Source: Mesorhizobium sp. SARCC-RB16n (GTDB lineage: Bacteria > Pseudomonadota > Alphaproteobacteria > Rhizobiales > Rhizobiaceae). Taken from it: a DNA stretch of 64,000 nucleotides. The notes beneath the pieces were generated by a model. That model was given only the letters and a program-made list of their open reading frames with translations. It did not search any database and had not been told where the DNA came from. The stretch covers positions 31,218 to 95,217 of the forward strand of contig NZ_ML703274.1 in NCBI RefSeq assembly GCF_008520305.1, given 5' to 3'. The position numbers were made by a program, and so were the translations under genes. Shown here piece after piece: positions 16,014 through 19,382 of this stretch; position 1 is the stretch's first letter; the number at the start of each line of letters is the position of its first letter.

Positions 16014-17282
16014 TTACCGGTACAAATCCGCCCGTGTCGGTGGCAAGCCGCTCGGGCCTCGCGCCCGTTTGGTGGCGACGGTCTGGAATATCTGCGCCGA
16101 GGCGCGTTCGAAGGTGATGGAGCAGCCGCTCAGGTAAAGCAGCCACAGCCGCGCCTTGGCTTCGCCGACCTCGGCGATCGCCTCGCCGAACCGCGCCTGC
16201 AGACGCTCGGCCCACAGCCTGCAGGTGCAGGCATAGTGCTCGCGCAAATTCTCGACATCGTAGACGAGGAAGCCGTGTGCTTCGAGATTGCCTACTGTCA
16301 TGCCGATCGTGTCGAGTTCGCCACCCGGGAAGATGTATTTGATCAGCGCCTTGTATTCCGGCCCCTTGCGCAGCGTCTTCTTGATGTCGCCCTTGCTGCG
16401 CCTTGTGATGGCGTGATGCAGATAGATGCCGCCTGGTTTCAGCAGCCGGTGGACAGCGGAGAAGTAGGCGGCATGGTTTGCCAGGCCTAGATGCTCGAAC
16501 ATACCGATGGACGATATCTTGTCGAAGGTGCCGGTGAGCTCCGCGTAGGACTTTATCTCGATGGTGATCTTGTCCTCCAGACCCTCGGCGCGAATGCGCT
16601 CGCGGGCAAGCGAGGTCTGGGCTTGCGACAGCGAGACGCCGTGCCCGACGACACCGTAGTTTTTCGCGGCATGGATCAGCATCGCGCCCCAGCCGCAGCC
16701 GATGTCGAGCAATCTTTCACCGGGTTTCAGCCGAAGCTTGCGGCAGATATGGTCGAGCTTGTCGACCTGCGCCTCGTCGATGCCGTTTGCGAAATCCTGG
16801 AAATACCCGCAGCTATAGACCATGCGCTGGTCTAGAAAGAGCCCGTAGAAGGCATTCGAGATATCATAGTGATGCTGGATCGCCTCCTTGCTGGAGCCGC
16901 TGACGAACGGGTTGCGACCGGCGAGATCAACCCGCGACGCCATCTGCTTTCTCGAAAACAGCACCGCCGGCAAGTCACGCAGAAGCGCCCGTTTCGGCAA
17001 TGCCTTCAGCTTCGACCGCAGCTTGCCCGTCGAAGGCAGGGCATAGAAATCGAACAGCGATCCATCCTCGATGTCGACTGCCTTGGAAATCCACATCTCG
17101 ATTAGGGTCGACAAGGACGGTCGGCGAACAATCCGCCAGACAATGTCGCGGTCGTTGATAACGAGCACGGGCCCCGTGGCGGGGCCGATCCGCTCGCCGG
17201 TCCACAGTCTGACCGCGAAGCCGGGCTTCACCGCCTCGACTACCGTTCGAACGATGCGCGCAGCTCTTTCGGTGGCGTCCAT
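16014..17282 (-). CDS. cfa: Cyclopropane-fatty-acyl-phospholipid synthase family protein
   Basis: SAM-dependent methyltransferase that adds a methylene across membrane-lipid double bonds. Visible: the N-terminal lipid-binding domain, the segment AIQHHYDISNAFYGLFLDQRMVYSCGYF, the SAM site LLDIGCGWGAML, the catalytic-region SIGMFEHLG, and LSGCSITFERASAQIFQ near the end. ATG 17282 (MDATERAARIVRTV) has GGGGAAGGGC just upstream and gives 422 residues. The frame stays open to 17405 with an arginine-rich 41-residue extension that I regard as untranslated, but it cannot be excluded. Divergent from the micro-gene at 17455. Confidence 0.93.
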   Translation of the reverse strand: MDATERAARIVRTVVEAVKPGFAVRLWTGERIGPATGPVLVINDRDIVWRIVRRPSLSTLIEMWISKAVDIEDGSLFDFYALPSTGKLRSKLKALPKRALLRDLPAVLFSRKQMASRVDLAGRNPFVSGSSKEAIQHHYDISNAFYGLFLDQRMVYSCGYFQDFANGIDEAQVDKLDHICRKLRLKPGERLLDIGCGWGAMLIHAAKNYGVVGHGVSLSQAQTSLARERIRAEGLEDKITIEIKSYAELTGTFDKISSIGMFEHLGLANHAAYFSAVHRLLKPGGIYLHHAITRRSKGDIKKTLRKGPEYKALIKYIFPGGELDTIGMTVGNLEAHGFLVYDVENLREHYACTCRLWAERLQARFGEAIAEVGEAKARLWLLYLSGCSITFERASAQIFQTVATKRARGPSGLPPTRADLYR

Positions 17283-17454
17283 GCCCTTCCCCGCGGTCGA
17301 TGGCCAATCTTGTCCGTTTGAGACCTGGATCGCAAGCCAAAGCATGCGGCGCCATCTTCCGGCAAGGAATGCCTTTTTCAGCATGGTACTTGTCATTTGC
17401 TGCAACGCACCCCATCATGGGTGTGTGTTCAACGAACTGAAAGGAGGTGATCCG

Positions 17455-17526
17455 ATGTCGAGTGATTTCGTTTTCCAGAACGTGGCCTCAGCGGATTGCA
17501 CTTTCGGGAAGCAGTCTTCCCGTTAA
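17455..17526 (+). CDS. 23-residue micro-gene with near-perfect Shine-Dalgarno sequence
   Basis: AAAGGAGGTGATCC at 17440-17453 is complementary over 14 bases to the usual 3' end of 16S rRNA and stands one base before ATG 17455. The reading frame encodes 23 residues starting MSSDFVFQNVA, with one Cys, and ends in TAA at 17524. It has no membrane segment or signal peptide. A 10-bp stem with one bulged G (17541-17565) and a strong terminator (17595-17630) follow, so the whole transcript would be under 250 bases. I know no named homologue. It may be a true small protein, or a ribosome-binding leader or sRNA whose short frame serves regulation. Such a ribosome site followed by a clean stop is hard to explain by chance. 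Confidence 0.6.
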   Translation: MSSDFVFQNVASADCTFGKQSSR

Positions 17527-17540
17527 GGCGCGAGATGCGC

Positions 17541-17565
17541 GGCGGGTGACGTGAGCGTCACCGCC
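17541..17565 (+). other. Stable RNA hairpin after the micro-gene
   Basis: GGC (17541-17543) and GGTGACG (17545-17551), separated by one bulged G, pair with CGTCACC (17556-17562) and GCC (17563-17565) around a TGAG loop. It lies 14 bases after the micro-gene stop and before the terminator, so it is part of the same predicted short transcript. Confidence 0.5.
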
Positions 17566-17594
17566 ATTGAGCCGCGTCATGGACGGAAACACGG

Positions 17595-17630
17595 AAGGCC
17601 GCCGGCTTCGAAAGAAGCGGCGGCCTTTTC
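17595..17630 (+). terminator. Intrinsic terminator of the micro-gene transcript
   Basis: AAGGCCGCCG (17595-17604) pairs perfectly with CGGCGGCCTT (17618-17627). The stem continues inside as CTTC-GAAA-GAAG with a GAAA tetraloop after a single bulged G. TTTTCCTTTT follows on the plus strand; no T-run follows on the minus strand, so it serves the plus-strand transcript and not tadG. Confidence 0.8.
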
Positions 17631-17645
17631 CTTTTGGGCCGGGTC

Positions 17646-19007
17646 CTACTTCGTCAAAGCAAGGGCTTCGATGTTGCGGGCGATTGTCTGAAAGGCCGAA
17701 TCCAATTCGGCGCCATCGGCGGCCTGGTAGAAATGCTTGACCGAACCGGTATCGGGGCTGGCACAATTCTGGAGCGTCGAAGCGGCATTCGTCTCGTCGA
17801 GTTTGAAGCCGATCGTGAAGATCTCTATGCCTTTGTCGCGCATGGCAGCGCAGAGTTTTGTCGCCGCCGTGCGGGTCGTTTCCTTGCCGGCGTCGTTATA
17901 GACCCCACCAACGCTGGTCGCGTCGAAATAGGACAGGTTGAATTCGCCGTCCGTCATGAGGATCGCGTACTTGCCAACTTTCTTGGGATCGAGCTTGGCT
18001 GGCCGCTGAGAGGCATTGAGCACACTGCCCCAGCTTTCCGACAGCATATACCAGGTCCATTGGACGCCGATGTGGCCGGCGGTGCCTCCCGAGGCGACAA
18101 GATTCTTGATGACATTCTTGAGCGTGGCGACGTCAGCCGTCAAAGGGACGAGCGCGGCGGCCGGACAAGCTGCGGTGTTTGTGTTTGCAGCGAAGCTCGA
18201 CAACAGATAGTCGCGGTTGACCATGCTGGAGACAGGACCTGCGTCCGAATATTGATCGGCCCCTTTGCGTTCGGTGGCGCAATTGTCCGGGCGTGGGGAC
18301 GCCGAAGCAGACTGAGCGCTCGCATTGCCGGGCGCCTGTTTGCGCTGGCTGGCATTGGCTTCCACATAGACGCTGCTGGCCGCAAGTTGGCCGGTATTGA
18401 CCGAATTGGCGTAGGGCACGATGGAGAGGCGAACGCGCGGCTTGTTCGGGTCCTGACTGCCTAGAAAGCTGTCCACCGCATTGGCGGCGGCGGTTTTCAG
18501 GTCCTTGATTTTCTGACCGGCCATCGATCCGGTTACATCGAGCATCATCGCCACTTCGATGGTCCTGTCCGAATAAAGCGATGTCGTCGAAGCAGTGACC
18601 CGCCTCGCATCGTCCGTGCCGAAAATCGGGAAGAACAGGGCAACATCGACATGGGCGTCCACTTGGACCGTTTTTGCGGTCTTGTCGACGATCAGCTTGT
18701 CGAGCACGATCTGGCCGGCGTGCAGAATGCCCGCCGTGCTGTTGGCGTCGAGAAAGGCCTGCACGGATTTGTTGGCGTCGGCTTCCTTGATGGCGCCGGT
18801 GGTCAGGTCACGTGCTGTCGATGTCACGGCCGCATCGACCACGCCCTGCAGGCTCGATTTGGCATTGTAGAGCTGAGTGACATTGACCGAAAAGCCCGCG
18901 ACCAGCGCCAAGACCGAGGCAGCAAAGCCGAACAGGACTGCGAAATTTCCACCACGATCTCTGGCGAACTCGCCGACCGCGTGAACAAGACCCCCGTAAT
19001 TCCGCAT
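17646..19007 (-). CDS. TadG-like pilus-assembly protein with von Willebrand A domain
   Basis: The 453-residue protein has a single N-terminal membrane anchor (about 17-40, in RDRGGNFAVLFGFAASVLALVAGFSVN), the TadE/TadG-type prepilin-like helix. An extracytoplasmic VWA domain follows. The metal-site motif is a DxTxS variant in VAMMLDVTGSMAGQKI near residue 160, with the later acidic YAILMTDGEFN. In Tad systems TadG stabilises the pilus at the envelope. Here it is an orphan with no other tad gene within the window, which is common in rhizobia. ATG 19007 is chosen because the anchor follows directly; the upstream open frame is Cys- and Arg-rich and unlike protein. Confidence 0.85.
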   Translation of the reverse strand: MRNYGGLVHAVGEFARDRGGNFAVLFGFAASVLALVAGFSVNVTQLYNAKSSLQGVVDAAVTSTARDLTTGAIKEADANKSVQAFLDANSTAGILHAGQIVLDKLIVDKTAKTVQVDAHVDVALFFPIFGTDDARRVTASTTSLYSDRTIEVAMMLDVTGSMAGQKIKDLKTAAANAVDSFLGSQDPNKPRVRLSIVPYANSVNTGQLAASSVYVEANASQRKQAPGNASAQSASASPRPDNCATERKGADQYSDAGPVSSMVNRDYLLSSFAANTNTAACPAAALVPLTADVATLKNVIKNLVASGGTAGHIGVQWTWYMLSESWGSVLNASQRPAKLDPKKVGKYAILMTDGEFNLSYFDATSVGGVYNDAGKETTRTAATKLCAAMRDKGIEIFTIGFKLDETNAASTLQNCASPDTGSVKHFYQAADGAELDSAFQTIARNIEALALTK

Positions 19008-19382
19008 CCAACAGCCTCCGCTTGCCTCGGCCTCGTCGCCGCGGACAGGGCAATGCAGGATTCCAGCCGGATGACGCCGCCTCACGCCGGGACACCCTCG
19101 GCAAGACATCAACCTGTTGTTTTTGCTTACTTTCGACCTTCGTAAAGGTGAACGACTGGTAAACGAAAAAACACGGTTGTCGCCGCGTTTACCAAGCGCT
19201 TACCATGCTGGAGGCGAGGCCATCGCCGAAGCGTGGCGACGTCCTGTTGCGGCACAGCCTTTCTGTGCCGAAGCGGACCAACTGTCCCAGGATTGAAGGC
19301 CCCGCGAACTGGTCAGCGGCAAAATGTGTTTGGATGTAGGGCCTGTTAGGAAGATCAGGCCGGCCTCACCTGAATATCATAG
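19008..19382. other. Gene-free stretch between tadG and the transglutaminase gene
   Basis: No supported coding sequence. It contains AT-rich DNA around 19110-19200 that probably holds the tadG promoter, with a perfect 9-bp inverted repeat TGGTAAACG (19157-19165)/CGTTTACCA (19186-19194), arms about 29 bp centre to centre. TTAC-N7-TTACC at 19189-19204 is a degenerate match to the CtrA pattern TTAA-N7-TTAA. I see nothing recognisable in 19210-19382. Confidence 0.5.
19157..19194. promoter_or_regulatory. 9-bp inverted repeat upstream of tadG, possible operator
   Basis: TGGTAAACG and CGTTTACCA are exact complements separated by 20 bases, about 150 bases upstream of the tadG start. The spacing (about three helical turns between centres) suits two protein dimers or a looped dimer. 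No regulator is known from the sequence. Confidence 0.4.

Follow-up and report, generated by a model that had tools for sequence, protein, structure and literature searches.

In Bacillus, the unusually strong Shine-Dalgarno (SD) sequences near the 5' end known as STAB-SD (cry1Aa, hbs) bind ribosomes, and in preQ1-II, SAM-II, and the rpsO leader the SD is sequestered by a pseudoknot. A short unit in the window, by which we mean the whole 64,000-nucleotide stretch of Mesorhizobium sp. SARCC-RB16n analyzed here, resembles the latter group in carrying its SD in the stem of a possible pseudoknot beside a start codon; it differs from them in that the SD partner lies inside the reading frame, there is no known ligand, and no downstream gene is served. 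From STAB-SD, which requires no start codon or frame, it differs by keeping the length of its frame. A further comparison is rnTrpL of Sinorhizobium, presented in PMC10117765 as a transcript of small size in which a very short frame is translated; translation of the window frame is predicted. In contrast to the window unit, rnTrpL derives from an operon's attenuator, located upstream of the operon genes, and has a functional peptide of 14 aa, according to the passages of that paper that deal with it.

On sequence comparison, the unit is distantly related to RF01867 (CC2171), an RNA family already known but unexplained. Both have the 5' module GAAAGGAGGUGAUCC-N-RUGUC, a long-range helix that encloses the RNA, and a terminator, but the unit scores below the family cut-off and its interior aligns poorly. 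PMC5596092 and PMC11701678 concern CC2171/RF01867 and name no function in their passages on it; in the searched literature, as far as its available passages extend, we recognized neither a function for the family nor a description of the anatomy (frame, mimic) of an RF01867-like RNA. Table 1 of PMC5596092 lists MH_s33 of M. huakuii 7653R, annotated as RF01867, with a 215-nt RNA-seq product, and places it between two same-strand genes, as in the window. We infer that MH_s33 is the counterpart of the window unit. The published strand of MH_s33 is minus, with minus/minus flanks; in M. huakuii NBRC 15243 (L043), the unit runs opposite to both flanks.

We give an even chance to the proposal that the unit is a free-standing, structured small mRNA of ~200 nt, akin to the Caulobacter CC2171 RNA, that would act as a translation-gated switch. 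The best reading of such a switch RNA is that ribosome traffic, and not the peptide, would be under selection.

Layout of the Unit and Its Shine-Dalgarno Sequence

The letters of the window read, in this order, as a complement of the 16S tail, an ATG, 23 codons, a TAA, and a strong terminator (Table 1). The ATG at 17455 follows the SD after one spacer base, the TAA occupies 17524-17526, and the hairpin CGGGAAGCAGTCTTCCCG closes the reading frame in the fold of the window RNA. The initial annotation had described a 14-base anti-SD match ahead of a 23-codon frame, followed by a stable hairpin and a strong terminator. This description was confirmed, and the match is in fact 15 bases long, as the 14-mer AAAGGAGGTGATCC at 17440-17453 is extended by a G at 17439. 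The RNA spanning 17430-17632 folded at -96.2 kcal/mol versus -72.8 +/- 4.7 for its shuffles (z -5.0). The terminator was missed by a simple terminator scan; it is conserved in Mesorhizobium among the aligned close relatives.

Table 1. Features of the unit and of its flanking genes, in window coordinates.
Feature	Position	Strand	Basis or remark
Promoter-like -35 TTGTCA / -10 CATCAT, 17-nt spacer	17390..17418	+	9/12 matches; putative function
Leader with putative 5' end (TTCAAC...)	17428..17438	+	Start placed by promoter spacing
Shine-Dalgarno GAAAGGAGGTGATCC, complementary to the 3' tail of 16S	17439..17453	+	Sequence, computed pairing
Reading frame ATG...TAA (MSSDFVFQNVASADCTFGKQSSR), 23 codons	17455..17526	+	Length constrained, sequence not
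P1 5' strand, codons 2-7 (TC, GTG, TTTCGTTT paired)	17458..17473	+	Partner-swap covariation; window duplex -10.7 kcal/mol
16S-tail mimic (internal anti-SD) GGATTGCACTTTC within the frame	17493..17505	+	SD pairing -12.2 kcal/mol; family-wide enrichment
Hairpin region GGGAAGCAGTCTTCCC ahead of the stop	17508..17523	+	Computed fold, visible in the letters
P1 3' strand (P1') GGACGGAAACACGGA	17581..17595	+	Covariation, duplex energy
Intrinsic terminator: GC-rich hairpin, GAAA loop, then TTTTCCTTTT	17597..17635	+	-24.9 kcal/mol
cfa-like protein, divergent neighbor, outside the unit	16017..17384	-	Pfam PF02353 CMAS 1.5e-88
VWA-domain protein, convergent neighbor, outside the unit	17646..19112	-	ORF; Pfam PF00092 1.7e-8 on 17649-19049

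Upstream of the SD, the commonest base among 136 representative copies was T at both -50 (0.62) and -23 (0.55) from the AAGGAGG string, with CTTG near -50 in many of the printed rows, and the leader consensus cAAcaa..GA was conserved in the same set.

The 14-mer AAAGGAGGTGATCC has a single exact copy in the window, where sites with two or fewer mismatches number 2 in all (shuffle mean 0.15). In three relatives, it occurred once per genome, a count that leaves the 16S genes out, and AGGAGGTGATC occurred 13, 13, and 14 times in the same genomes. As to the 16S tail itself, a 53-base 3' end containing GGATCACCTCCTTTCT was found at 100% identity in named alphaproteobacterial plasmid/chromid records, for example from Phyllobacterium, whose copy was read, and from Rhizobium and Methylobacterium. 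RNA genes are absent from the gene tables of the plasmids, and we infer that the matched records are rRNA loci. The sequences of two relatives' genomes, G002 and G003, whose chromosomes are titled complete, yielded no 16S rRNA gene, the rRNA genes being probably missing from these sequences; in one of these two, the sole match to the 15-base tail string was the reverse strand of the SD unit. The computed pairing of the SD with the 16S tail amounts to -29.9 kcal/mol, compared with -19.3 for the best site upstream of 69 long ORFs of the window, with the first ATG taken as the start of each.

Conservation, Genomic Context, and the Wider Family

A search anchored by synteny on the neighboring cfa protein found 66 loci, of which four unrelated ones were dropped; the 62 kept belong to Mesorhizobium or Aminobacter. 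The SD, the ATG, and the 23-codon frame were present in all 62, upstream of cfa on the opposite strand. Five loci (L025, L029, L037, L038, L039) have their SD 0.8-1.4 kb further from cfa than the other 57, with offsets of 1144-1640 versus 212-355, and an extra gene may lie between the unit and cfa in these five.

Across the 136 representative loci, crude ORF calls placed the downstream gene in convergent orientation in 65 and on the same strand in 47, and found none in 24, and the eight upstream neighbors put to Pfam represented eight different kinds of protein. No conserved neighbor or orientation was seen in these 136 orientations and eight Pfam assignments. Given such varied upstream proteins and mixed orientations, the RNA gene looks free-standing. 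This agrees with the earlier view that the unit is separate from cfa and tadG, the latter being the name that the initial annotation gave to the convergent VWA-domain neighbor. Its proposals of a self-contained short transcript and of a regulatory RNA also gained support, from the unit's own promoter-like sequence and terminator and from the 215-nt RNA-seq product that the MH_s33 entry of PMC5596092 records for an RF01867 RNA of M. huakuii. An attenuator or leader peptide of a downstream gene was considered separately and ruled out by orientation, the downstream gene of the window being convergent.

At the gathering threshold, Rfam reported only a tRNA in the window. At a low threshold, the unit matched RF01867 with 35.4 bits, versus a curated cut-off of 75, and an E-value of 5.7e-6, or 3.5e-6 with a shorter stretch. 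It aligned at full length to positions 1-159 of the model with GAAAGGAGGUGAUCC and UGUC matched, and the invariant SD module probably contributes, by our estimate, the bulk of the score. The enclosing long-range helix that RF01867 carries before its terminator is present in the unit as P1. Of 150 genomes examined from the order, 72 gave a match to the family, ten of them above the cut-off; in a set of 14 named controls, Caulobacter alone gave one.

Of 397 genomes searched in the order, 181 contained the exact SD-start string AAGGAGGTGATCCNRTG, and none its reversed control. Each positive genome had one site, except for two in G146; the variants of the different clades may be orthologs. AAAGGAGGTGATCCNRTGTC was found in 52 of 385 genomes of the class and AAGGAGGTGATCCNRTGTC in 62 of 398 genomes of the phylum (controls 0 in both), the three genome samples overlapping. 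From part of the positive genomes, 235 copies were taken by SD plus start codon alone, 189 of them distinct, and a k-mer filter reduced these to the 136 representatives, in which relatedness is only partly removed. One locus, L094, is without the exact string, and L103, L176, L177, and L190 have longer frames.

Pairing within the RNA and Constraint on the Frame

Codons 2-7 pair with the stretch right before the terminator to form the helix P1, which displays strong covariation. Over 130 loci, the mean duplex energy was -12.05 with own partners and -7.68 +/- 0.25 with swapped ones, the best of 200 swaps reaching -8.29. A gap-free layout of the 77 of these 130 loci with a purine motif (53 left out) had 72% of its cells paired, versus 61% after swapping and a maximum of 66% in 500 swaps. 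Examples are CAUUGUC/GACAAUG and CAUGAGAU/AUCUCAUG; in the window, GUG-A-UUUCGUUU pairs with GGACGGAA-A-CAC, and the energy given in Table 1 includes an A.A mismatch and a small internal loop. The region of the P1 3' strand is nearly invariant among 63 aligned close relatives.

The second half of the frame contains a degenerate copy of the 16S tail, the mimic, that is able to pair with the SD. Over 126 loci, pairing of the SD with the frame segment (+21 to the stop) averaged -12.34; none of 61 decoy SDs, made of the same bases as the true one, went below -11.52, and no target shuffle out of 60 below -10.49. The SD surpassed every decoy in clades A, B, and D, and in clade C (7 loci) one decoy ranked above it (-11.09 vs -11.00). 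For the 26 held-out loci, the SD gave -11.15, with 100 decoys at a mean of -8.77 and a best of -11.13, and the best of 100 shuffles at -9.37. In many loci of clade A, the mimic reads TGGATCNTCGCCTCY, which copies the 16S tail TGGATCACCTCC with a bulge.

In most loci, the mimic ends before or near the stop. The best SD partner ended before the stop or no more than 6 nt from it in 98 of 126 loci, with the frame making up 57% of the searched length, and its distance to the following stop was 0-35 nt in 75% of the 126, compared with 47% for decoys (maximum 60% among 25). The stop tracked the mimic weakly in comparison with permuted stops (0.746 vs 0.659, maximum 0.754 of 2000). In L092, the mimic is positioned earlier, at +30 to +44, with the stop at +42. 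Most loci differ from the 18-codon examples L161 and L165, where the stop precedes the best SD partner.

When the whole body was searched, at least one of 25 decoys exceeded the true SD (-13.46 vs -13.08), and sequestration of the SD by nested folding did not go beyond shuffles (unpaired 0.49 with its own body, 0.42 with a shuffled one). The post-stop stretch paired with the SD at -9.36, the best of 60 shuffles giving -9.33 and decoys reaching -11.32; with P1' included, the value was -10.05 vs -9.51 +/- 0.18 for shuffles. With its slight advantage over shuffles, the post-stop stretch is a candidate for the SD partner beside the mimic. An anti-SD after the stop was marginal at best (-10.62 in group D vs -10.59 for the best shuffle). 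A local anti-anti-SD hairpin acting as a competitor was rejected, with no covariation between own (-9.82) and swapped (-9.64) partners.

The mimic could have another role, that of an mRNA-repressing seed: the unit would then be a trans-acting anti-SD small RNA, with the CCUC in the mimic as its active part and the SD as an intramolecular cap removed by the 30S subunit. The TGGATCNTCGCCTCY of many clade A rows agrees with this idea, as does the common 10-mer anti-SD motif that Caulobacter SisA-D share in the account of PMC12559287. We nevertheless consider it unlikely, since a seed should be invariant and here the mimic is variable and degenerate, whereas the SD is invariant (partly through the search string). 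The near-invariant TC after the start codon also argues against it, and the constraint on frame length would be left without an explanation.

That constraint is evident in the 136 representatives, 85% of which have frames of 20-27 codons, compared with 11% of dinucleotide shuffles (maximum 19% in 300 rounds) and with 5% and 4% in the +1 and +2 frames; for 18-30 codons, the values were 91% and, in shuffles, 17%. Among the 26 held-out copies, 16 had 18 codons, three had 14 or 15, and seven had 20-27, with 19% of each wrong frame at 20-27 codons. Because the held-out copies fell mostly outside it, the 20-27 range does not carry over; the 18-30 class took in 23 of the 26. By these counts, the frame is short and clade-typical, with 14-27 codons in most. 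Clades with 18 codons include L161, L165-L168, L274-L280, L282, L283, and L285-L291, and a 14-codon variant (VSFTKRCHLAGIAR and near copies) occurs in L092, L093, L179, L292, and L293.

The encoded peptide behaves differently from the length of its frame. In 47 disjoint close pairs, 13 of them from Mesorhizobium, pN/pS was 0.82 (0.70-1.00) versus 0.83 and 0.81 in the wrong frames, and purifying selection on amino acids was not found by this measure; from codon 8 on, differences at codon positions 1/2/3 numbered 104/99/103. Across clades, the peptides were by eye not alignable past MS/VS. Gap lengths divisible by three accounted for 17 of the 70 gaps within frames and for 21 of the 206 that follow stops (78 pairs, in a gap-prone alignment). 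The longer frames of Azospirillum type, which served as the positive control for the codon-position count, gave third-position excesses of 23 vs 14/12 and 23 vs 14/14 in two pairs, and it seems that in this lineage the frame became, or stayed, one coding for a small secreted protein. The same SD-start module heads a 55-57-codon frame with a signal-peptide-like start in L271 (Azospirillum argentinense chromid), L103, L176, and L177.

An ordinary small-protein gene, with the 23-residue peptide as its product and a very strong ribosome site, would be consistent with the perfect SD, the well-placed start codon, the frame kept in every close relative, and the Azospirillum-type lineage. The even spread over codon positions, a pN/pS no different from that of wrong frames, and the unalignable peptides make this quite improbable, and they tell against the abundant small protein that had been proposed at first. 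The conservation in relatives named earlier as a check is borne out for the frame and the ribosome site, with frame length depending on the clade, and not for the peptide. As shortness is kept and the protein sequence is not, translation itself appears to matter: the comparison suggests that the frame is selected and the peptide is not, and that being translated counts for more than what is made.

A Proposed Translation-Gated Switch

Comparison of the loci thus revealed a complete 16S-tail complement with a well-spaced start codon, a length-constrained frame, P1, and the mimic, and the switch that we propose would operate on these elements. Without ribosomes, the SD in the 5' tail would pair with the mimic and the RNA would be closed. 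The SD:mimic pairing and P1 cross, and together they would therefore form an H-type pseudoknot whose first loop holds the start codon; the two pairings may instead be alternate states. Should a 30S subunit be first to capture the SD, it would open P1 and start translation. Ribosomes crossing the frame and stopping at its end would cover the mimic, so that the SD stays free and translation becomes self-sustaining, and the stop codon would keep them off P1' and the terminator. A device held open by passing ribosomes would account for a frame that spans the mimic and ends before P1'. Ribosome loading would be reported through the fold or the lifetime of the RNA, with the peptide as a by-product. 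Candidate outputs are stability, release of the CCUC-bearing mimic onto other mRNAs, and ribosome binding itself. The sign of the feedback is our supposition; in either state, 30S binding at the SD would compete with structure.

The initial annotation also offered a ribosome-titrating RNA. Such an RNA, or one that parks 30S subunits, would compete for them and lower initiation, for example when growth slows, and is very unlikely in our judgment. It would make sense of complementarity that spans the whole tail and of an SD pairing that exceeds by 10 kcal/mol the best one at the first ATGs of the 69 long ORFs, but it requires ribosome-like abundance, and abundance values were looked for and not found, MH_s33 being absent from Table 2 of PMC5596092; a pure decoy could do without a short frame and without constraint on its stop. 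Equally improbable, by analogy with the Bacillus elements, is a stabilizing SD at which a 30S subunit merely shields the body of a regulatory RNA from RNase E: the SD lies within ~12 nt of the putative 5' end and a strong terminator closes the other end, but such a role would not require a kept frame length.

The translation-gated switch may be taken one step further, to an RNA that would sense free and competent 30S subunits across the class. Once a ribosome is captured, the throwaway frame would keep this RNA lastingly open, and the open state would set a downstream output. As the RNA holds both halves of an SD:anti-SD pair, intramolecular pairing would compete directly with the 16S 3' end. 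We put this forward as a tentative and rather doubtful extension.

If the proposed switch is true, a large part of the Alphaproteobacteria would have an RNA whose function is the act of translation, with the peptide as waste, and in which the 16S tail is copied within an mRNA as a competitor. This would provide a testable hypothesis for an RNA that reads ribosome supply, and it would give a function to the Rfam family RF01867, for which the available passages of the searched literature described none. A conserved ribosome site and frame need not mean a conserved small protein.
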